IMG/VR virus record: IMGVR_UViG_3300031673_004455
Span: 1-30,291 of that record
DNA from: a virus
Reading direction: 5' to 3' (one strand)
DNA: 30,291 bases
The notes beneath the pieces were generated by a model. The model did not search any database. It saw only the letters and a list, made by a program, of their open reading frames with translations, and was not told the DNA's origin. Shown piece after piece: positions 4,439-30,291 of the stretch (the stretch's first letter is position 1; each line of letters opens with the position of its first letter). The position numbers and the translations under genes are program-made.

Positions 4439-4465
4439 AAGGTGTTCGTGAGGACACCTTTTTTT
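4439..4465 (+). terminator. Rho-independent terminator
   Basis: AAGGTGTTC, loop GTGA, GGACACCTT (one G-U pair), then a run of T to 4465. It closes the rightward block ending at 4402. Its T tract overlaps the stop codon of the convergent HNH gene. Confidence 0.85.
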
Positions 4466-4955
4466 ATCTAAATACCTCTCGTTTAAATGTTTCCCATGCG
4501 GTTTCTACCGTTTCATCTATAACTCTTGAAAATAATGTGGGAGTGTAAGGTTTAAATCTTAATTTCATTCCAGCTTCTTCAGGTGTTTTATTATCTTTAA
4601 TGCTATTGCACCTGAAACAGGATGTCACTAAGTTACTCCAACTATTTGGTCCACCTCTGGATTTCGGAATAATATGGTCCACAGTTAAATTCTTTTTTGA
4701 CCCACAATAGGTACATTCATACCCGTCTCTTTTGAATAGTCGTTTGCGCGTTACACCCAAATTACCTGGCCTAAACCGAACATAATTTAATAGTCGTATA
4801 ACGATAGGTCTAATGAAATTACCTGATGCGGTTATAATATCATTACCTTTTTGTAGAATCTCAGCCCTACCTTTTTCTACTAATACAAATCCTCGTCTCA
4901 ATGAAGTTACGTTATGAGGGGTGAAATCTGAATTAAGGACCAATACTATATCCAT
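4464..4955 (-). CDS. HNH endonuclease
   Basis: 163 aa. The C-terminal half is a classical HNH domain: a zinc knuckle C-x2-C (CTYC, about residues 86-89), the catalytic DHIIPKSRGG block (about 103-112), the N-L-V asparagine and a second C-x2-C (CFRC). The N-terminal half (VLVLNSDFTPHNVTSLRRG) is the strand-rich lead-in common in bacterial and phage HNH proteins of this subtype. It could act as a homing-like nuclease, as an accessory to packaging or as a host-DNA nuclease; the sequence does not decide. It is transcribed leftward against its neighbours and is a single gene with its own upstream TATTTATA-like element, so it looks like an insertion between blocks. Confidence 0.9.
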   Translation of the reverse strand: MDIVLVLNSDFTPHNVTSLRRGFVLVEKGRAEILQKGNDIITASGNFIRPIVIRLLNYVRFRPGNLGVTRKRLFKRDGYECTYCGSKKNLTVDHIIPKSRGGPNSWSNLVTSCFRCNSIKDNKTPEEAGMKLRFKPYTPTLFSRVIDETVETAWETFKREVFR

Positions 4956-4987: not shown

Positions 4988-4995
4988 TATAAATA
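4988..4995 (-). promoter_or_regulatory. TATTTATA motif for HNH gene, candidate late promoter
   Basis: On the minus strand this reads TATTTATA, 32 nt before the HNH start codon. The larger spacing makes it less certain than the 12-15 nt examples. Confidence 0.4.
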
Positions 4996-5013
4996 GATTA
5001 ATAATCAAAGGTA

Positions 5014-5021
5014 TATTTATG
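5014..5021 (+). promoter_or_regulatory. TATTTATG motif, candidate late promoter for amidase
   Basis: One mismatch to TATTTATA at the last base, 28 nt before the ATG at 5050; divergent from the HNH promoter motif. Confidence 0.4.
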
Positions 5022-5049
5022 GTAAATAAACTATTCTAATAAAATAAGT

Positions 5050-6000
5050 ATGTTATTAAAAGTTGGTTCAAAAGGACAAGATGTAAAAGACCTCCAAGAA
5101 TTCTTGGGAGTTACCGCTGACGGTATTTTTGGTAAAGGAACTGAGAAGGTTGTTAAAAAATGGCAATCGGATAATGGTCTTGTTGCTGACGGTATTGTCG
5201 GTCGTACCACTTGGAGTAAGATGGGTATTGCCGATACTGATAACTCAAGGTCGAGTGTAGGTCCTATCGGTCCCGTTGGTAATGTACAAACAGAAAAAAT
5301 TAAAGGTGATTATTCGAAAAACAAATATACCACAAATAACGGTATTGATATAGTAGAATATTTTATGCCAAAAGATGAATACAAAAAAGGACCCATCAAA
5401 GCTGAATGGTTATACTTACACCATACTGCAGGATGGAACAATCCTTACAAATGTATCCAACAATGGGATGCCGACGATAGAGGTGAAATTGCCACTGAGT
5501 TTGTATTAGGTGGACCGTCAATTAAAGGTGACGACAATACTTACGACGGTGTGATGGTTCAATCATTCCCAAATGGAAATTGGGGTTATCATTTAGGTAA
5601 AAATGGTTCACAAACCATGCATAAGAATTCTGTGGGTATTGAGGTTTGTAACTTCGGTTATATTGTGAATGGTAAAACATATGCTGGGTCATCAGTAAAA
5701 GAATCTCAAATTGTTACGTTATCAGAACCTTTCAGAGGTCACAAAACTTGGCATAGATATTCTGATAATCAAATTGAATCTTTAAGATTGTGGATGCAAT
5801 TTATTGGAGAAAGAGATGGTATTGATATCAGAGCAGGTTTACCCAAATTAGTCAAAGAAAAGGGTTCAAAGGCATTCGATTTTAATGAGGATGCGTATTA
5901 TGGTCGAGTAAAAGGTGTATGGACACATACTAACACACGTAAAGACAAATTTGATATGTTCCCACAACAGGAATTATTAGATATGTTGATGAGTTTATAA
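5050..6000 (+). CDS. N-acetylmuramoyl-L-alanine amidase with peptidoglycan-binding domain (endolysin)
   Basis: 316 aa. Residues 3-59 form a PG_binding_1 domain with the two typical repeats (GVTADGIFGKGTEKVVKKWQ and LVADGIVGRTTWSKMG). A Gly/Pro/Asn linker follows to about residue 90. Residues 115 onward match the amidase_2 (type 2, T7-lysozyme-like) fold: LYLHHTAGW gives the first zinc histidine (H124 or H125), with GYHLGKNG and NSVGIEVCNFG as the later core and a possible second ligand region at GHKTWHRYSD. It would cut the amide bond between MurNAc and L-Ala of the host cell wall at lysis. No signal peptide is visible, so release would need a holin or another route; no holin is evident next to it. 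A terminator hairpin follows. Confidence 0.92.
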   Translation: MLLKVGSKGQDVKDLQEFLGVTADGIFGKGTEKVVKKWQSDNGLVADGIVGRTTWSKMGIADTDNSRSSVGPIGPVGNVQTEKIKGDYSKNKYTTNNGIDIVEYFMPKDEYKKGPIKAEWLYLHHTAGWNNPYKCIQQWDADDRGEIATEFVLGGPSIKGDDNTYDGVMVQSFPNGNWGYHLGKNGSQTMHKNSVGIEVCNFGYIVNGKTYAGSSVKESQIVTLSEPFRGHKTWHRYSDNQIESLRLWMQFIGERDGIDIRAGLPKLVKEKGSKAFDFNEDAYYGRVKGVWTHTNTRKDKFDMFPQQELLDMLMSL

Positions 6001-8551: not shown

Positions 8552-8941
8552 TGGTGGAGGTGGCGGGTTTCGAACCCGCGTCTTGTTCAGTCCACCTGCA
8601 AAGGACTACACGTTTAGGACAACATTAATTCACAATGTTCCGTAATATTCGGTTGAAATTTTACATCCTCCACCGACAATAGATGTACGATTCAATTTTG
8701 GGTTTAATCGTTTTTCCACCACAACAACGGACTTCTGTTCATAGGTACATGTCCTGACCGACCCGATTCACTGTTACGTACTACGCTACAGTTACTTCTT
8801 CAGTACGTAGAAGACCTACTGCCTGAAGTTTTGCGAAAGTTTCGCCTGTTAAAAAAGTGCAACCATAGATTAAAGTGATAGGAAACATCTCACTACGTGC
8901 CCCGTACAACTGACCCTGCCAATCAATTCCAACTCACCCCC
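8552..8941 (-). ncRNA. ssrA: Transfer-messenger RNA (tmRNA)
   Basis: 390 nt, one piece, not permuted. The ends form a 7-bp acceptor stem: GGGGGUG (8941-8935) with CACCUCC (8562-8556), then A and an encoded CCA. The third pair is G-U, the alanine-tRNA-synthetase identity pair. The T arm is GCGGG-TTCGAAA-CCCGC (8579-8563). The 5' tRNA-like part reads AGTTGGAATTGAT instead of a full D arm, as in tmRNAs. The tag reading frame, placed by similarity to Bacteroidota tmRNAs whose tag starts GGCGAAACT, runs from 8846 down to the TAG at 8783-8781. It encodes 21 residues starting GETFAKLQAV and ending EEVTVA. The tag is longer than the roughly nine residues usual in Bacteroidota and ends TVA, not LAA. 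The RNA would rescue stalled ribosomes and tag nascent chains. It has its own host-type promoter and a terminator. Identity is very secure; the tag frame is moderately secure. Confidence 0.95.
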
Positions 8942-8970
8942 ATATTTCAAAGAACTCTAACTTCTGAGTA

Positions 8971-9000
8971 CAAATATAAATACTTTTTTTATTATAACAA
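8971..9000 (-). promoter_or_regulatory. Host-type promoter of the tmRNA gene
   Basis: Minus strand: TTG (9000-8998), 19 nt, TATATTTG (8978-8971). This matches the Bacteroidota primary sigma consensus. Transcription would start about 20-25 nt before the mature 5' end, consistent with RNase P trimming. Confidence 0.75.
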
Positions 9001-9002
9001 TC

Positions 9003-9010
9003 TATTTATC
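9003..9010 (+). promoter_or_regulatory. TATTTATC motif upstream of 9031 gene
   Basis: Late-type motif with one mismatch, 20 nt before the ATG at 9031. Conserved in copy B. Confidence 0.45.
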
Positions 9011-9030
9011 GGTATAATGATTATTAATTT

Positions 9031-9549
9031 ATGAAAAAGATTGTAAAACTCACAGAATCCGATTTAGAAAAAATCATTTTAAGGATTATCAAAGAACAAA
9101 GTATTAATACGCCTTTAGATGGTAATTCAGATTATAGGTTACCTGAAGAGATAATTACACAATACTTTGGTAAACGAGTAAAAAACCATCTTGCTGAATT
9201 TATTGATAGGGGGGGGACAAACCTCAAACGTGTTATACGGGAGGAAACGAATACTGATTCAACCAATGCTCAACTACAGGTCAAACTAATTAAGAAACTA
9301 TTAGATGTTGCGCCATATGAGGGGGTATGTGGTTATAACATTAGAATTGATGAGGATAATGATAGAGTTGCTAGCGTGATTATTAGGTTCTCTTCAAAGT
9401 GGTACAGGTACAGTGATGATAGGTATGAATTGAACAGAAAAGTGGATACAATTCAAACAACCAAAGTTAAGGTTGAAGAAATGGTCAGTAAGTATTTGAA
9501 TATAGATAACCTTTATGTTGGTTCCTATTTGGAAGACTGTGATTTATAA
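9031..9549 (+). CDS. Leader-bearing hypothetical protein A
   Basis: 172 aa. Residues 1-38 form the leader shared with the next gene: KKIVKLTESDLEKI, a second helix, then IKE/Q with E at residue 22, followed by DGNSDYRLP. After residue 38 the sequence is unrelated to the neighbour: a helical part (EEIITQYFGKRVKNHLAEFI) and a strand-rich end (YNIRIDEDNDRVASVIIRFS, SKYLNIDNLYVGSYLEDCDL). No family recognised for the C-terminal domain. The leader, ending in I-K-E, looks like a T4-type capsid-targeting sequence trimmed by the gp21-like protease, so the C-terminal domain may be cargo of the virion; that is inference. The start is fixed by conservation of the ATG and 5' region between the two copies. 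Confidence 0.82.
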   Translation: MKKIVKLTESDLEKIILRIIKEQSINTPLDGNSDYRLPEEIITQYFGKRVKNHLAEFIDRGGTNLKRVIREETNTDSTNAQLQVKLIKKLLDVAPYEGVCGYNIRIDEDNDRVASVIIRFSSKWYRYSDDRYELNRKVDTIQTTKVKVEEMVSKYLNIDNLYVGSYLEDCDL

Positions 9550-9587
9550 TTGACTCCCATATTTCAAAGAACTTTTGTTTCTGAGTA

Positions 9588-9616
9588 CAAATATAAATAC
9601 TTTTTTATTGTAACAA
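9588..9616 (-). promoter_or_regulatory. Duplicated leftward promoter, now facing the 3' end of 9031 gene
   Basis: Second copy of the tmRNA promoter: TATATTTG (9595-9588) with TTG (9616-9614), spacing 18 nt. It has no tmRNA behind it and would make RNA antisense to the gene at 9031-9549 if active. It may be only a relic of the duplication. Confidence 0.4.
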
Positions 9617-9618
9617 AC

Positions 9619-9626
9619 TATTTATC
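9619..9626 (+). promoter_or_regulatory. TATTTATC motif upstream of 9647 gene
   Basis: Same motif and sequence as in copy A, 20 nt before the ATG at 9647. Confidence 0.45.
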
Positions 9627-9646
9627 GGTATAATAATTATTAATTT

Positions 9647-10132
9647 ATGAAAAAGATTGTAAAAATAACAGAATCCGATTTAGAAAAAATCGTTTTAAGG
9701 ATTATCAAAGAACAAAGTATTAGTACGACTTTAGACGGTAATTCAGATTATAGGTTACCAAAAATAGATAATAACACTATCAGTAAATTTACAAATTGGG
9801 CTAATGGAGACTTCACTTATGCGATGAAGACATTACGTGACTTAGGTCTTCGATATGGTAACATTACAATTCAACCAAACCCTATGAATGTCAATATAAA
9901 AGACTTTAAAGGTACTGTCGAAGATAATGCAGATAAACTTATTGGGATGTTCAATAAGGGGTTAGAATCAATTGCAATCACAGGATACGTAGAAGAGAAG
10001 TTTTTTAAATTACCTATTTTCCAAAAAACTATGAATAATGTTGGTATAAATCCTAATGAGGTTGCTAAATTATTTACAAACTATTATAATGTTTTATCTG
10101 GATTAGCAAAAATTCAAAATAAAACATTGTAA
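9647..10132 (+). CDS. Leader-bearing hypothetical protein B
   Basis: 161 aa. Residues 1-38 match protein A at 34 of 38 positions by eye (KKIVKITESDLEKIVLRIIK, E/Q at 22/23, DGNSDYRLP). The remainder is different: a mainly helical domain (TISKFTNWANGDFTYAMKTL, then LGLRYGNITIQPNPMNVNIK, and a C-terminal helix ending in NVLSGLAKIQNKTL). I recognise no family. The same leader on an unrelated body is the clearest case in this window of a reusable N-terminal cassette. It is followed 25 nt later by a strong terminator and then by a convergent lipoprotein gene. Confidence 0.82.
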   Translation: MKKIVKITESDLEKIVLRIIKEQSISTTLDGNSDYRLPKIDNNTISKFTNWANGDFTYAMKTLRDLGLRYGNITIQPNPMNVNIKDFKGTVEDNADKLIGMFNKGLESIAITGYVEEKFFKLPIFQKTMNNVGINPNEVAKLFTNYYNVLSGLAKIQNKTL

Positions 10133-19136: not shown

Positions 19137-19540
19137 AACTAGTATATGTGAATGAGTTAGGACCCAACTATAAAGGGGACAATATATACGAATTCATATT
19201 TAGTGATATTGAAGATGTATGGGGTGAAGATTGGGATAAAGAACCTGCAAGTGGTAACCCAACTCCACCCCTTTTACATTTTATAAAAAAAGTTGGAGTT
19301 CTAAGAAATTCAGGTATACAATTAAACCTAATTCAGAATTCTGATTACTTCTCTGTTTATGACGCAACTGAAGATATTATTGCGTTAGCATGGGAAGTTA
19401 GTGAAAGTGAAGCCGTAAACGACAGTGGACTAAATAGAATGGTTTTCCGTTATGGTGATACTGTTAAACAAGTGGAGGATAAAATATACGAAAGAGATAT
19501 CGTATTAACATACGAAAAAACTATTGCACACAATGAATAA
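19133..19540 (+). CDS. Hypothetical protein in head block
   Basis: 135 aa, mixed alpha/beta: KLVYVNELGPNYKGDNIYEF, an acidic W-rich segment (DVWGEDWDKEPA), HFIKKVGVLRNSGIQLNLIQ, and FRYGDTVKQVEDKIYERDIV near the end. No family recognised. It overlaps the preceding stop by 4 nt and the next start by 8 nt, a tight operon arrangement that supports both the gene and its boundaries. Confidence 0.82.
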   Translation: MKLVYVNELGPNYKGDNIYEFIFSDIEDVWGEDWDKEPASGNPTPPLLHFIKKVGVLRNSGIQLNLIQNSDYFSVYDATEDIIALAWEVSESEAVNDSGLNRMVFRYGDTVKQVEDKIYERDIVLTYEKTIAHNE

Positions 19541-20408
19541 TTCAAAAGTAGCCGTTTTATTAAACAAAGGTATCAAGTTCGAAACATTAAAAATGTTAAA
19601 CGAAACTCAAATTAATATGTTATACACTAGCGTAGTTGGTGAACAGAACAATCTTACAAAGAAAATCCAAGGAGCCAAAGAAGAGCTAGCCGGTGTAGAC
19701 CAAATGGTTAACAATCTTGCTGCAAAAATTGGTGAAGAAGATAATATTGAAGATGAAGCGTCTACGGATTCTTTAGAAAAGATGTCAGGTTATGACCCAT
19801 ACGCAGGTAATAGTGTAGGTAACGATGGTGGACCATCAAGTGATGATGGATTCAACGATAAGGCCGATGACGGTATGGATGAAGAAGTTGGTGAGGAATT
19901 TAAGTCTAAATCACAACAAAAATACTTCTTTGCTAAATGTGAAGAGGAGGGACCTAAATCTAAATGGTGTAAGATGGCTGATGAGTTTGCTGGTGACACT
20001 AAGAATTGGAAAAAATTACCTAAGAAAGTAAGTGAAAGTAAGATTAGACAAATTGAAGAATCTTTAATACATTTAGTACGTAAGTATATTCCTGAAACTA
20101 TGACTAAAAAAGCATTATTAAATTTATTAGAACAACTACCCGGTACTAAAGAGGCTCCTGTTAAAACACCAACAAGAACCACACCCGAAAGAAAAACACC
20201 GTATAAGCCAAAACATAAACCAGCACCTAAAGCTGGTGACACTCAAACGGCACCTAAAGTTAAACCAGGTGTTGCACCTTCAGTACCTGAAAGAAAAACC
20301 CCATATCAACCGAAACATAAACCAGCACCTAAGGCTAAAAAAGAGTTACCGAGTTTTTTGAAATTCAACACTTTAAATATTAAATTCAGAGATGAGCAAG
20401 AGAATTAA
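19533..20408 (+). CDS. Hypothetical head-block protein with Pro/Lys repeats
   Basis: 291 aa from the ATG at 19533; an earlier TTG at 19524 is less likely. The N-terminus is a coiled helix (NSKVAVLLNKGIKFETLKML, GAKEELAGVDQMVNNLAAKI), followed by a Gly/Asp-rich acidic linker. Then comes a short conserved-looking block FKSKSQQKYFFAKCEEEGPK/SKWCKMADEF with two Cys, which recalls small 'SxxQ' motifs in other phage proteins, and a helix. The last 90 residues hold two copies of a PERKTPYxPKHKPAPKA repeat and a tail LPSFLKFNTLNIKF. The role is unknown. It overlaps both neighbours (8 nt upstream, 17 nt downstream). Confidence 0.8.
   Translation: MNNSKVAVLLNKGIKFETLKMLNETQINMLYTSVVGEQNNLTKKIQGAKEELAGVDQMVNNLAAKIGEEDNIEDEASTDSLEKMSGYDPYAGNSVGNDGGPSSDDGFNDKADDGMDEEVGEEFKSKSQQKYFFAKCEEEGPKSKWCKMADEFAGDTKNWKKLPKKVSESKIRQIEESLIHLVRKYIPETMTKKALLNLLEQLPGTKEAPVKTPTRTTPERKTPYKPKHKPAPKAGDTQTAPKVKPGVAPSVPERKTPYQPKHKPAPKAKKELPSFLKFNTLNIKFRDEQEN
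20183..20337 (+). repeat. Two-copy repeat coding PERKTPY-PKHKPAPKA
   Basis: A roughly 50-bp unit at about 20183-20234 and again at about 20286-20337, inside the gene at 19533. It encodes a basic proline-rich segment. Confidence 0.8.
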
Positions 20409-21690: not shown

Positions 21691-23469
21691 ATGAGTATCT
21701 CAAAAGAAAAAGCACTAGTAGAATATGCGAAAATCATTAAGGACACACCTTATGCATTAAAGACTTACCTACAGACTTACGACAATACTCAATTACGATA
21801 CGTTCCTTTAGAATTATTTCCAGACCAAGAACATTTAATTAACGATTACGACACCTATGAAGAAAACATAGCGTTAAAATATCGTCAAGCGGGTGTATCA
21901 ACAGTTACCGCGGCTTGGGCATCTAAAAAATTAATCACAGCCAAAAAATCACAACCTGAAAAACTTCTAATCATTGCAAATAAATTGGATACTTCCATGG
22001 AATTTGCAAATAAGGTAAGAGCGTTTGTTGACCAATGGCCTGAATGGTTGGGTGTTAAATTTTCTCAAGAAAAAAATTCACAAAGACATTTTAAGTTATC
22101 TAACGGATGTGAGGTTAAAGCCGTTGCAACCTCTAAAGATGCTTTGCGTGGTTATACACCTACTATACTTATTTTTGATGAAGCAGCGTTTATCGATGCT
22201 GACGATGACTTTTGGTCTGCGTGTATGGCCTCTCTATCTACGGGTGGTAAGGTAATCGTAGTATCAACACCTAACGGATTTGATGCTATTTACTATTCAA
22301 TTTACGAACAATCACTTCGAGGAATGAATGATTTCAAAATTACTGAAATGTATTGGTACCGAGACCCTCGTTATGCCAAAGACTTGCAACTTATAAAATG
22401 TAAGGATATTGTTCATTATATGTTAAATAGAGATGAATACGTTGATGATGATATCATTATACGATATGAGTCTATTGACCCAATGTTAAGAGATTTTGTG
22501 GAAATTAAAGAAAGGTTTAATGAAGGATATCGTCCTTACTCTTCTTGGTTTGAAAACATGGCTAAAAAGTTAAAATTTGATAGACGTAAAATAGCTCAGG
22601 AGCTTGAATGTAATTTCTTAGGTTCTGGTGATAGTGTCATCCCTAATGAAACTGTTGAGTCTATTAAAGAGAATTTTATTATCCCACCTGAAAATAAATT
22701 TATGGGTGGTGCAATGTGGCAATGGAAAGAACCTATTGAAAGTCATAAATATATTATGGGTATTGACGTTTCTCGTGGTGATAGTGAGGATTTCACAACA
22801 TTCTGTATAATTGACTTTGACGAGAGAGAACAGGTGTTAGAATACTTAGGTAAGATTCCACCTGACGTTGCGGCTGAGATTGCATTTAAATGGGCAACTA
22901 TGTATAACGCTTTTGTGGTTATTGATATCACTGGTGGTATGGGAGTTTCAACTGCAAGGAAATTAATGGAGTTGGGATATAAGAATTTATATATTGATGG
23001 TGTTAATGTTGCCGATAAGTGGAGATACAATGCAAATATAGTAGATAAAACACCGGGGTTAAACTTTAACACCAAGCGTGTTCAGATTATTGCATCATTT
23101 GAAGAAGCGTTAAGACATAGTTTCGCAGTTCGTTCATCTCGTTTGTTAAATGAGTTAAATACGTTTGTTTATGTTAACGGTAGACCTGACCACATGAAAG
23201 GTCAACATGATGATTTAATTATGGCAATGGCTATGGCGATTTATGTTGGTGAGAATTCATTCACTAATTTAGAAAAAGTTACTAACCAAACTAAGGCCAT
23301 GGTAGATAGTTGGACAGTACAGGAAAGTGCGGTTAGAAACCCTATTAATGATTTCAACCCATCATTGAGCATGTATAACGGAGGAGATTATAATCAACAA
23401 CGTAGTGGTGGTCAGGCGACAAAAAGTGACTATCAGAACTATTTATGGTTATTGGGCGGAAAAAAATAA
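21691..23469 (+). CDS. terL: Terminase large subunit (T4 gp17-like)
   Basis: 592 aa. The ATPase half has a deviant Walker A RQAGVST (65-71; no GK-S/T lysine, arginine at the front) and Walker B ILIFDEAAF (159-167), followed by the coupling STPNG segment (192-196). The nuclease half has the RNase-H-like acidic sites D359 (MGIDVSRGDSED), D412 (VVIDITGG) and the D507-D508 pair (GQHDDLIMA). Length and order fit T4 gp17 and relatives. It forms the motor that drives DNA into the prohead through the portal and cuts the genome. It lies 49 nt before the portal gene; T4 has the tail genes 18 and 19 in this interval, which are missing here. Confidence 0.95.
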   Translation: MSISKEKALVEYAKIIKDTPYALKTYLQTYDNTQLRYVPLELFPDQEHLINDYDTYEENIALKYRQAGVSTVTAAWASKKLITAKKSQPEKLLIIANKLDTSMEFANKVRAFVDQWPEWLGVKFSQEKNSQRHFKLSNGCEVKAVATSKDALRGYTPTILIFDEAAFIDADDDFWSACMASLSTGGKVIVVSTPNGFDAIYYSIYEQSLRGMNDFKITEMYWYRDPRYAKDLQLIKCKDIVHYMLNRDEYVDDDIIIRYESIDPMLRDFVEIKERFNEGYRPYSSWFENMAKKLKFDRRKIAQELECNFLGSGDSVIPNETVESIKENFIIPPENKFMGGAMWQWKEPIESHKYIMGIDVSRGDSEDFTTFCIIDFDEREQVLEYLGKIPPDVAAEIAFKWATMYNAFVVIDITGGMGVSTARKLMELGYKNLYIDGVNVADKWRYNANIVDKTPGLNFNTKRVQIIASFEEALRHSFAVRSSRLLNELNTFVYVNGRPDHMKGQHDDLIMAMAMAIYVGENSFTNLEKVTNQTKAMVDSWTVQESAVRNPINDFNPSLSMYNGGDYNQQRSGGQATKSDYQNYLWLLGGKK

Positions 23470-23518: not shown

Positions 23519-25393
23519 ATGGCACAGAATAATTACACAGTATGGCAAAGATTAAGTAAAGTCTTTGGTCCCAATTCAACTTTGGACCAGCAACCGCCTG
23601 TCTATAAGTTTGATAAGAAAGAACTTCTAAAGACTAAAGATAAAAGTGAGTTTGAAAGAGAAAAACTTCAAGCACAACAAACACTTTATTTGGGCGCACA
23701 ATGGCAAAAGGTTGAGAATAACCTTTACACTCAAGCCGTATATTATGAACCAACAAGATTAGCTGCATTTTACGATTACGAGAGTATGGAATTTACTCCT
23801 GAGATATCTGCAGCATTAGACATTTATTCAGAAGAATCTACAACAACAAACGAAGATGGACATATTTTACAAATTTACTCAGAGAGCAAACGAATTAAAT
23901 CGATACTTGGTGACTTATTCAACAATAGACTTGATATCAATACTAATTTACCTATGTGGACAAGGAATACTTGTAAGTATGGGGACAATTTTGTTTACTT
24001 AAAACTTGACCCTGAAAAGGGTATAATGGGAGGACAACAACTTCCAAACATAGAAATTGAAAGATTGGAGAGAGGTATGAAATCTACTCCATCACAATAT
24101 GGTATCAATACTCCAACAACAGAATCTGATGAGTCGTTAAAATTCAAATGGAAGGTTAAAGACTTAGAGTTTAATACTTGGGAAATGGCACACTTTAGAT
24201 TATTAGGTGATGACCGTAAACTTCCTTATGGTACTTCTATGTTAGAAAAAGCCAGAAGAATTTGGAAACAACTTATTCTTTCTGAAGATGCGATGTTAAT
24301 ATATAGAACATCAAGAGCACCTGAAAGAAGAGTGTTTAAAGTCTTCGTAGGTAATATGGATGACAAAGATGTTGAACCGTATGTACAACGTGTTGCCAAT
24401 AAATTCAAACGTGACCAAGTTGCTGACCCTCAAACGGGTAATGTAGATTTACGTATGAATCAAATGGCGGTTGACCAGGATTACTTTATTCCTGTTAGAG
24501 ACCCTAACGCACCTAATCCAATAGATACCCTACCTGGGGCTACTAATCTATCTGAAATTGCAGATATTGAGTATATCCAAAAGAAACTATTGACGGCACT
24601 TCGTGTTCCTAAGGCATTCTTAGGTTTTGAAGAGGTTACAGGTGAAGGAAAAAACTTAGCATTACAGGATATTCGTTTTGCTCGTACAATCAATAGAATT
24701 CAAAAATCTATGATTCAGGAGTTAAATAAAATTGCAGTTATCCATTTATATATTTTAGGATTTGAAGATGAGTTAGATAACTTTACATTGGGATTAACTA
24801 ATCCATCGACACAAGCAGATTTACTTAAGATTGAGCAATGGACACAAAAAATTTCATTATATCGTGATGCGGTTAGTGACCCAGGAAATGGTATACAACC
24901 AGTATCTTCATCATGGGCTAAGAAACATATTCTTGGTTTCTCTGATGAGGAAATTAAATTAGATATTCAACAACAAAGAATTGAAAGAGCAGTTGCCGGT
25001 GAATTAGAAAAAACACAAGAAGTTATTCTAAGTACAGGTATATTCGATAACCTAGATAAGTTATATGGTCAGAAAGGACAAAAACCAGCTGAAAGTGAAG
25101 AATCTGGTGGGGATATGGGTACTGATGATTTTGGTGGTGGTTCTGACTTCGGTTCTGATTTAGGTACTGATTTAGGTACTGATTTAGGTACTGATTTAGG
25201 CCCTGATACAGGTTCTGAAATCGGTGGTGGAGGTGAAACTGAGGTAACACCTGAAGGACTGGTTAAGAATAAAGACCTTGACTTAATTTTGGAAGATTCC
25301 ACTTTATTTGGTCAAAATGAGACTATAGATTTATCTAAAGGACGTAAGTCTTTAGGTGAAATAGGAGAAAAGTTGAATGAGTTACTTAAATAA
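23519..25393 (+). CDS. gp20: Portal protein (T4 gp20-like)
   Basis: 624 aa. It has the features of T4-type portals: an N-terminal clip/wing region (YYEPTRLAAFYDYESMEFTP, then EISAALDIYSEESTT), MWTRNTCKYGDNFVYLKLDP, the central KLPYGTSMLEKARRIWKQL helix, RAPERRVFKVFVGN and the conserved DIEYIQKKLLTALRVPKAFL block. The C-terminal region carries a Gly/Asp-rich low-complexity tract (SDLGTDLGTDLGTDLG) followed by a final helix. Twelve copies would form the ring at the unique head vertex, the channel for DNA and the docking site for terminase and tail. Order after TerL and before protease, scaffold and capsid is as in T4. Confidence 0.94.
   Translation: MAQNNYTVWQRLSKVFGPNSTLDQQPPVYKFDKKELLKTKDKSEFEREKLQAQQTLYLGAQWQKVENNLYTQAVYYEPTRLAAFYDYESMEFTPEISAALDIYSEESTTTNEDGHILQIYSESKRIKSILGDLFNNRLDINTNLPMWTRNTCKYGDNFVYLKLDPEKGIMGGQQLPNIEIERLERGMKSTPSQYGINTPTTESDESLKFKWKVKDLEFNTWEMAHFRLLGDDRKLPYGTSMLEKARRIWKQLILSEDAMLIYRTSRAPERRVFKVFVGNMDDKDVEPYVQRVANKFKRDQVADPQTGNVDLRMNQMAVDQDYFIPVRDPNAPNPIDTLPGATNLSEIADIEYIQKKLLTALRVPKAFLGFEEVTGEGKNLALQDIRFARTINRIQKSMIQELNKIAVIHLYILGFEDELDNFTLGLTNPSTQADLLKIEQWTQKISLYRDAVSDPGNGIQPVSSSWAKKHILGFSDEEIKLDIQQQRIERAVAGELEKTQEVILSTGIFDNLDKLYGQKGQKPAESEESGGDMGTDDFGGGSDFGSDLGTDLGTDLGTDLGPDTGSEIGGGGETEVTPEGLVKNKDLDLILEDSTLFGQNETIDLSKGRKSLGEIGEKLNELLK
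25157..25204 (+). repeat. 12-bp tandem repeat in portal gene (coding DLGT)
   Basis: Three exact GATTTAGGTACT units (25157-25192) and a fourth changed one (GATTTAGGCCCT). In frame, so variable copy number would change the linker length only. Confidence 0.9.
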
Positions 25394-26918: not shown

Positions 26919-27308
26919 ATGAGAATCAAAATTACTGAAAATCAATTGAAGAGATTAAATAAGGTTATTAATGAGGCGAACACCCCCATTGATAACCTTA
27001 ATAATCTTATTAACGCTAAAGACATTACTATTACAACAGGTTTGGTTGTGGTAACATTTGATTCTATTATGGTTGAGGGTGATATTAAAGATGGGAATAT
27101 GACCGTTAAGTGTTTGATTGATAAAATCAAATATGACGGTAAAGATGTTACCGATTTCGCATTAGCATGGACCTTAAGAAATGAATGGACGAGTGATGAC
27201 TTACCCTTAGGTACTATAATATGTACGGATTTAGCTGAGATAATGAATAAAGAATTTTTATCACTTATTGGTGTAGAGATTAGCGAATATGATGTCATAA
27301 TAGAATAA
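26919..27308 (+). CDS. Leader-bearing hypothetical protein C
   Basis: 129 aa. The leader MRIKITENQLKRLNKVINE/A follows the same plan as proteins A and B (K-I-T-E-x-x-L-x-[K/R]) and ends in I-N-E/A at residue 19, identical to the site in the capsid protein. The body is strand-rich (ITITTGLVVVTFDSIMVEGD, NMTVKCLIDKIKYDGKDVTD) with no family recognised. Its place two genes before the scaffold and directly before the prohead protease fits a small internal or core protein processed during head maturation. Confidence 0.82.
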   Translation: MRIKITENQLKRLNKVINEANTPIDNLNNLINAKDITITTGLVVVTFDSIMVEGDIKDGNMTVKCLIDKIKYDGKDVTDFALAWTLRNEWTSDDLPLGTIICTDLAEIMNKEFLSLIGVEISEYDVIIE

Positions 27309-27345: not shown

Positions 27346-28065
27346 ATGAAAATATTAGGACCAAACGATACGGGTAAAGGAATATTGATTGAGTGGGACG
27401 CAGGTTTTGTGAATCCAAATGATAGTAGAAATGCTGACATTATAAAAGAATCGTATGGACAGTTAGACCACTCTAAACCATTTGAGTTTTATGCTGTATT
27501 ACAAAAGTTTGATACACCTAATAGAAATGGTAGGGTTTATCCTGAAAAGATTTTACGTAGAGAAGCCGAAAGATATCAAGGAGCAATTAAAAAAGGTCTA
27601 TCGATTTCCGAATTAAATCACCCTGAATCATCATTAATTGATTTGGACCGTGTATCTCACCTTATCACGGATATGTGGTGGGAAGGTAGTACTTTAATGG
27701 GTAAGTTAAAATTATTAACATCTCCAGGGTTTCATAGTAGTGGTGTTGTTTCGTGTCCTGGTGACCAAGCAGCTAACTTAATGAGACAAGGTGTCACTAT
27801 GGGTGTTTCATCACGTGGTGTGGGTTCTTTAGCTCGTAAGGGTGAAAGAAACGAAGTACAGGAAGATTTTGAATTGATTTGTTTTGACTTAGTATCGTCA
27901 CCATCAACACCAGGGGCGTATCTATTCTTAGATAAAGGTGATAAGATGAAGTATGAAGAAAGCTTAGACGAAGAGAAAAAACCAATTTCTGAACCAAAAT
28001 TTAATGGTGCTATGGGTGCGTCTATTGACTTAATGAGAAGATTATCCGATTATTTAGGAAATTAA
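27346..28065 (+). CDS. gp21: Prohead core protease (T4 gp21-like)
   Basis: 239 aa. Conserved features of the gp21/herpes-assemblin-like serine protease fold: FYAVLQKFDTPNRNGRVYPE, the catalytic histidine in ELNHPES (H92), the serine in GVSSRGVGS (S155 or S156) and the acidic partner region ELICFDLVSSPSTPGA (D181). It should mature the prohead by cutting scaffold, capsid protein and internal proteins after [L/I]-x-E. The N-terminal GILIEW and the C-terminal tail (SLDEEKKPISE) may themselves be processed. The position just before scaffold and capsid genes is as in T4. Confidence 0.92.
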   Translation: MKILGPNDTGKGILIEWDAGFVNPNDSRNADIIKESYGQLDHSKPFEFYAVLQKFDTPNRNGRVYPEKILRREAERYQGAIKKGLSISELNHPESSLIDLDRVSHLITDMWWEGSTLMGKLKLLTSPGFHSSGVVSCPGDQAANLMRQGVTMGVSSRGVGSLARKGERNEVQEDFELICFDLVSSPSTPGAYLFLDKGDKMKYEESLDEEKKPISEPKFNGAMGASIDLMRRLSDYLGN

Positions 28066-29809: not shown

Positions 29810-30291
29810 ATGGGAGCATTATTAGAAAGCGGTCTTGTAGGTAACATCGGTCTTAAGCACTTGAAAGTTATCAAAGAAGACACAATCAACAAATGGGACA
29901 AATTAGGTTTCTTAGATGGCTTGAAAGGTCACATGAGAGAAAACGTTGCTCAATTATATGAGAACCAAGCTTCTCACTTAATCAACGAAGCATCATCAGC
30001 GGACGGTTCAGGTTCATTCGAAACTGTAGTTTTCCCAATCGTGAGAAGAGTATTCTCAAAATTATTAGCGAACGATATCGTATCTGTTCAGGCTATGAAC
30101 TTACCAATCGGTAAATTATTCTACTTCGTACCAATGATTCAGAAGGGTGCTAGCGATAGTACACACAGACAACCATTTGGTGCACCAGGTAACTCTGACG
30201 GTATCAACGCAGGTTACGGAGCTAACGGTTACTCTAAAGATTTGTACGACCAGTTCTACGAAGGAGCAACTCCAAACTCTGACCCAGCAGG
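29810..30291 (+). CDS. gp23: Major capsid protein (T4 gp23-like), 5' part
   Basis: 160 complete codons are visible before the window ends. The N-terminus (MGALLESGLVGNIGLKHLKV, then KLGFLDGLKGHMRENVAQLY, ENQASHLINE/ASSADG) has the T4 gp23 layout: a roughly 60-residue delta segment ending in an [L/I]-x-E/A cleavage site (E60/A61; T4 cuts after E65), followed by FETVVFPIVRRVFSKLLAND and LPIGKLFYFVPMIQ of the mature HK97-like fold. It will form the head shell after cleavage. No own promoter motif is obvious, so it is probably expressed with the scaffold gene. Confidence 0.93.
   Translation, partial: MGALLESGLVGNIGLKHLKVIKEDTINKWDKLGFLDGLKGHMRENVAQLYENQASHLINEASSADGSGSFETVVFPIVRRVFSKLLANDIVSVQAMNLPIGKLFYFVPMIQKGASDSTHRQPFGAPGNSDGINAGYGANGYSKDLYDQFYEGATPNSDPA

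Follow-up and report, generated by a model that had tools for sequence, protein, structure and literature searches.

INTRODUCTION

In T-even phages, a conserved capsid-targeting sequence is known to be joined to diverse protein bodies (PMC3012670, PMC9026906), and the cleavage rule of the gp21 prohead protease is L/I-X-E (PMC9026906). Injected head proteins decide early infection, for example by anti-restriction or host take-over; little sequence is common to them, and in uncultured phages they are difficult to spot. A second described system concerns DNA rather than protein: promoter/stem-loop cassettes (PeSL) mediate gene shuffling in T4-like phages (Arbiol et al. 2010 and Comeau et al. 2014, as cited in PMC4503421).

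Here we analyse a stretch of 30,291 nucleotides, the full window, which comprises positions 1 to 30,291 of the IMG/VR virus record IMGVR_UViG_3300031673_004455. An earlier note had described a promoter-plus-leader cassette beside its tmRNA gene that is duplicated and joined to two different protein bodies. In our reading, to which we assign a probability of roughly 0.7, the leader would be a capsid-targeting propeptide cleaved by gp21, the promoter–leader DNA would act as a recombination module, and the position next to the tmRNA gene would be a slot in which bodies have repeatedly been swapped.

RESULTS

A promoter–leader cassette is present twice beside the tmRNA gene

The tmRNA gene of the window (8552–8941, minus strand; encoded tag peptide AKLQAVGLLRTEEVTVA) was missed by ARAGORN and found with Rfam model RF00023 (71.5 bits, E = 3.9e-26). 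Starting at its 5′ end, about 210 bp are present twice in direct order on the plus strand, as the earlier note had stated: copy 1 spans 8936–9144 and copy 2 spans 9553–9760, with 208 of 229 positions identical in BLASTN (91%, E = 8e-89). Ungapped blocks of the alignment reach 94% (8985–9143/9601–9759) and 88% (8931–8989/9548–9606). The alignment also confirms the described content of each copy, namely a few bases from the 5′ terminus of the tmRNA gene, a divergent promoter region, the ATG and 38 codons. Identity between the copies is 92% in the intergenic part, 95% in codons 1–22 and 92% in codons 23–38; six of the 38 leader codons differ (L7I, I16V, N26S, P28T and synonymous changes at codons 30 and 38). 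Past codon 38 the sliding identity falls from ∼0.9 to 0.2–0.3 within a few codons, which is where the note had placed the end of the common part. The 38-codon leader holds as a length within the window and can be refined to a 22-residue tag followed by a 16-residue linker, with relatives sharing only the first 22 residues. The linker (residues 23–38) was seen in this virus only and is lacking in the slots of the relatives; searches of viral contigs with the linker and with a tight DNA pattern for the leader matched no contigs.

Copy 2 starts directly after the stop codon of the first gene, ORF1 (9547–9549), and opens with a stub of 6–8 nt, a degraded remainder of the tmRNA 5′ end (9551–9558; TGACTCCC against TCACCCCC). 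A tandem of this kind could also arise as an assembly artefact or as a chimera of strain variants in a metagenomic contig. The record is indeed a single metagenomic one, and a further contig carrying these genes or the linker did not turn up; however, the longest exact stretch common to both copies is 30 nt, which makes an artefact of short-read assembly unlikely, the junction between the ORF1 stop codon and copy 2 does not fall within a repeat, and both genes are open and well formed. We consider such an origin very improbable. A third full copy of the cassette was not found within the window. A weak promoter-only match to the intergenic part (73%, E = 9e-4) lies at 4993–5056 on the minus strand, between ORFs 4464–4955 (minus) and 5050–6000 (plus). 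A 52-bp direct repeat (87%; 20183–20234 and 20285–20336) occurs in a Pro/Lys-rich stretch of ORF 19524–20408.

The bodies behind the two leaders differ

The two leaders open two genes on the plus strand, ORF1 (9031–9549, 172 aa) and ORF2 (9647–10132, 161 aa). Both carry the tag in residues 1–22 and the linker in residues 23–38, followed by a body of residues 39–172 in ORF1 and 39–161 in ORF2. Comparison of the bodies by BLASTP gave no similarity (E = 2.2), the Smith–Waterman score of 28 equals that of shuffled sequences (mean 29 ± 5), and comparison of profiles with hhalign yielded a probability of 0.08%. By these sequence measures the bodies are without detectable homology, which agrees with the earlier description of differing C-terminal domains. 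The same note had named one explanation that would speak against its reading: a tandem duplication of a whole gene, with fast divergence of the bodies while promoter and leader were held by selection. The tandem order would fit and the leader is clearly constrained across the tag family, but bodies no more alike than shuffled sequences do not point to a common origin. Moreover, the ORF2 body is 34–38% identical to the slot gene of a distant phage and hence is not racing, and the linker, which is not part of the tag, is still 92% identical before the drop within a few codons. A whole-gene duplication therefore appears improbable to us.

Homologues of the ORF1 body were found neither in 50 related records nor by a profile scan. 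Two small phage ORFs match in part and at borderline values (L025:3332-3634, E = 0.008; L022, E = 0.2); we do not claim them as relatives. The structure predicted for ORF1 folded alone (mean pLDDT 63) has a moderately confident alpha/beta C-terminal part, with only weak matches in the PDB, the best being the C-terminal domain of MamM (E = 0.009). For the ORF2 body, homologues are the slot genes of L078 (34% identity, E = 3e-13) and of L189, the latter again adjoining a tmRNA gene. A further slot body, that of L081, appeared plausible as an ORF2 homologue by eye and was rejected, as hhalign gives no support. The structure prediction for ORF2 (pLDDT 40) is too low for a decisive fold comparison with the ORF1 body; in both predictions the leader is helical, at low confidence.

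The leader tag is found on many unrelated bodies and ends in a gp21 cleavage motif

A scan of viral contigs with ORF1 gave 53 loci, mostly matching only the first ∼22–30 residues, and a profile search for the tag gave 107 dereplicated tagged ORFs in related viral contigs, with up to 15 matches per record. The consensus of the tag is MKKIVKLTESDLxRIVKRVI(K/N)E. The 80 tags that are in register precede bodies that fall into 59 clusters; the earlier note had suggested looking for such further bodies in related phages. Glu-22 is conserved in 79 of these 80 tags, position 20 is I or L in 74 (58 I, 16 L; V in 6) and position 21 varies; from residue 24 on, conservation is near background. Since the profile consists of 24 columns, the informative features are the fall inside columns 23–24 and the flat level beyond. 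The tag ends in (I/L)-x-E, the motif that directs cleavage by the gp21 prohead protease; in ORF1 (tag codons 9031–9096) the end is I-K-E, and from the conservation profile and the motif we predict cleavage after E22. Compared with 50,697 phage records, the tag consensus gave no significant match (best E = 4), and literal strings of the tag peptide were not found in the papers searched; uncultured phages are the only known source of the tag.

Most Pfam assignments for the tagged bodies are weak. Single bodies match PG_binding_1 (E = 7e-13), UPF0227/abhydrolase (4e-8) and the antirestriction protein ArdA (1e-4); the last would parallel the anti-restriction role of IPI in T4. A second leader class, MKKFIISEEERSRILSMHESATKRxYLSEQ, occurs in L083, L085 (slot gene) and L094/L095 and also ends in (I/L)-x-E, and further leaders, MKFINLLLEG and MKRNIINEVNRMRQIMGL...LEQ, appear to follow a similar logic.

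The window covers a T4-type head-gene region with the terminase gp17 (21691–23469), the portal gp20 (23519–25393), a gp21-type prohead protease (27346–28065, plus strand; PF03420, E = 1e-22; phrog_207, E = 1e-42), which is the proposed processing enzyme, and the major capsid protein gp23 (29810–30289, plus strand; PF07068, E = 4e-9), cut by the end of the window. The conserved propeptide end of gp23, at residue 60, reads LINE|A and is the same in the N-termini of the relatives' capsid proteins. Between portal and protease, at the position of gp67/gp68, sequence and relatives point to a probable core protein (26919–27308, plus strand) whose N-terminus resembles the tag (KITENQLKRLNKVINE|A); a nearly identical copy of it in L102 gives a weak match to the tag HMM (E = 0.09). 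Of 20 tagged records, 15 encode a member of the gp21 family (S77) and one more has a partial gene at a contig end, against a background of 2,216 among 50,697 phage records with a gp21 relative. The four tagged records without gp21 are two short fragments and two large records (G003, G004); the latter have neither a recognised gp21 nor a recognised gp20 and may be incomplete or divergent. Small proteins with a tag-like N-terminus and, immediately behind it, a lysine-rich run, which resemble basic internal proteins, are encoded on the minus strand at most 10 kb from gp21 in close relatives (L102:17707-17937, L104:11088-11348, L108:17365-17607, L132:8423-8674).

We favour a cleaved propeptide because conservation ends at E22 within the published gp21 motif and the capsid protein carries the matching LINE|A. 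The leader had earlier been called a targeting signal; in our analysis, a putative role of this kind is suggested by the (I/L)-x-E motif and the co-occurrence with gp21. Alternatively, the leader could be a conserved N-terminal helix with another role, such as oligomerisation, binding of a common partner or enhancement of translation, and would be neither cleaved nor head-targeting. The helical prediction in both ORFs and the two large tagged records in which gp21 was not recognised would be in line with this possibility, whereas the exact coincidence of the end of conservation with the gp21 motif, the presence of gp21 in most tagged records and the tag-like N-terminus of the core protein adjoining gp21 argue against it. 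We regard a helix with another role as unlikely.

Expression signals of the cassette

On the tmRNA side, both copies carry a promoter pattern of the Bacteroidota type: TTG-N19-TATATTTG in copy 1 (8971–9000, minus strand) and TTG-N18-TATATTTG in copy 2 (9588–9616, minus strand). The pattern fits TTG/TAnnTTTG, the promoter consensus of Bacteroidota. In copy 2 the promoter is intact and no tmRNA gene adjoins it; we read it as a fossil of an earlier tmRNA neighbour. If active, it would drive antisense transcription of ORF1 and then on into the true tmRNA gene.

In the direction of the tagged genes, a TATTTAT element precedes ORF1 (9003–9009, plus strand) and ORF2 (9619–9625, plus strand) as a putative late promoter. 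This block and a TACAAATATAAATA block are invariant in an alignment of the 12 related slots, and TATTTAT was found upstream of tagged genes in 60 of 93 regions, with 6.5 expected. An extended form, TATTTATA (TATAAATA on the minus strand), precedes several genes of the window at a short distance. As these include gp20 and gp21, TATTTAT is probably a general late promoter rather than a signal private to the cassette. No stem-loop was seen in the two cassette copies of the window; in several relatives, a G+C-rich stem with a T-run was read by eye just upstream of TATTTAT.

Promoter and leader as a possible mobile unit

The earlier note had proposed that expression signal and targeting signal move as one unit. 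A pair of related phages, L065 and L066, independently fits this proposal, as they are 96% identical from −62 to +66, across promoter and leader, then 42%, and continue into different bodies; they also diverge on the tmRNA side of the common stretch. In L065, however, a promoter segment of 67 bp is repeated (98.5%; ∼1960–2030 and 3417–3483 bases beyond the tmRNA 5′ end in the direction of the tagged gene) before two genes of different leader classes, so the promoter is also able to move without a leader. Leaders on unrelated bodies within the same record agree in their synonymous codons at 0.67, compared to 0.50 ± 0.02 for codons redrawn from the usage of the record; between records the values are 0.57 and 0.47, an excess to which constraint close to the start codon could contribute. 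Beyond the shared peptide, the leader DNA on unrelated bodies is by its codons of common descent. The synonymous identity fits either movement of the leader or swapping of bodies beside it.

A slot next to the tmRNA gene and the order of events

Twelve relatives have a tagged gene in divergent orientation to the tmRNA gene, at 84–90 or ∼165 bases from the tmRNA 5′ end; some other relatives have no tagged gene at this slot. The slot bodies comprise a family of ∼400 residues (L064, L066, L070–L073), a second family (L082, L086) and other bodies (L065, L069, L078, L081). The slot genes of L083 and L085 carry a different leader class, ending in YINEQ or YLSEQ. The earlier note had suggested a search for further copies near tmRNA genes, and several unrelated bodies do occur next to these genes in relatives. 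By eye, several of the slot bodies of L064, L065, L066 and L069–L073 resemble peptidoglycan-binding domains of the OmpA type. The tmRNA tag peptide AKLQAVGLLRTEEVTVA is nearly unchanged in L066, L073, L082 and L086.

ORF2 is probably the older occupant of the slot and ORF1, which has no close relatives, an inserted newcomer body. Slot relatives of the ORF2 body occur in L078 and L189 and none were found for ORF1, and at the sites that differ between the copies the relatives agree with copy 2 in 61 cases and with copy 1 in 33, a ratio from sites that are not independent and with L081 and L086 polarised opposite to the majority. In addition, copy 2 keeps the stub of the tmRNA 5′ end and a tmRNA promoter that is now useless, which also points to ORF2 as the earlier neighbour of the tmRNA gene.

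The duplication can be explained about as well by a fusion of two slot alleles, in which two co-infecting phages with different tagged genes at the slot recombined so that the end of ORF1 was joined to a tmRNA 5′ end and both genes came to lie in tandem. The cassette itself would then not have moved onto a new body, and the tag could have the same function. Copy 2 opens with the tmRNA stub right after the ORF1 stop codon and has its tmRNA promoter intact, as a fusion would predict; slot bodies vary between phages, and the 7–9% divergence of the copies could be divergence between phages. Against this, the linker is common to both copies (92%) and absent from other slots, and its DNA is absent from viral contigs. 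As the linker is private to this virus, both fused alleles would have to stem from closely related phages. We treat a fusion as a realistic possibility, at somewhat less than even odds. Dating the copies by their divergence was rejected, since they may derive from two different phages. As direct repeats flank the ORF1 body, ORF1 could drop out by recombination, leaving the order tmRNA–cassette–ORF2.

DISCUSSION

For the favoured reading, a gp21-cleaved propeptide on a recombining promoter–leader module, we infer packaging, cleavage, injection, late timing and the order of events from the sequence. A late promoter would drive the tagged protein, the tag would bring it into the prohead core, and gp21 would cut it behind (I/L)-x-E, so that the body, now mature, is packaged with the DNA and injected. 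At the level of DNA, the promoter and leader would form a shared module of homology, and bodies would be exchanged or gained when recombination takes place in or next to it. This would have happened repeatedly at the slot divergent from the tmRNA gene, and in the window ORF1 with its own copy of the cassette would have come between the tmRNA gene and the older ORF2.

More generally, we tentatively suggest, at a little under an even chance, that uncultured T4-type phages, probably of Bacteroidota, use a general head-loading code: a few classes of N-terminal (I/L)-x-E tags, spread by recombination of promoter–leader DNA, would load many unrelated proteins per virion, with the tmRNA slot as a hot spot for the exchange of cargo genes. 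If this is true, the injected proteome of uncultured phages could be read from sequence alone. Because the end of the tag is clear, genomes could be screened directly for candidate cargo. The tandem cassette, the L065/L066 pair and the tmRNA slot may represent intermediates of how cargo sets grow and change.

The logic of a constant N-terminal delivery part and exchangeable cargo is shared with polymorphic toxins and secretion effectors (PMC3482391), which differ in their sequences and in the delivery machine. PeSL cassettes (as cited in PMC4503421) are likewise regulatory elements that recur between genes and promote their shuffling, and repeated copies flank shuffled genes in both cases, here the ORF1 body of the window and, with the 67-bp promoter duplication, a tagged gene of L065. 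PeSL carries an early promoter; the tagged genes carry TATTTAT, which also stands before gp20 and gp21 and would point to a late promoter. The cassette of the window adds a protein leader and a tmRNA promoter, and no stem-loop was seen in its copies.

A close likeness is also seen to the internal head proteins of T-even phages (IPI, IPII, IPIII and Alt), which likewise have a short N-terminal propeptide ending in (L/I)-x-E (PMC3012670, PMC9026906), gp21 in the genome, and a conserved propeptide before diverse mature bodies. The tag described here has 22 residues and a different sequence, compared to ∼10 residues in the T-even internal proteins, and an informal comparison gave no evident sequence similarity to the 10-residue capsid-targeting sequence (CTS) of T4. 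Tagged genes are also more numerous than in T-even phages, with up to 15 matches per record and 59 body clusters in our sample, and, in contrast to T-even phages, the tagged phages have no cultured member and are known from sequence alone. The general concept of a constant tag with varied bodies, and of shuffling cassettes, is already known; new, as far as our searches show, are this tag, its wide occurrence among uncultured phages, the slot beside the tmRNA gene and the intermediate forms.
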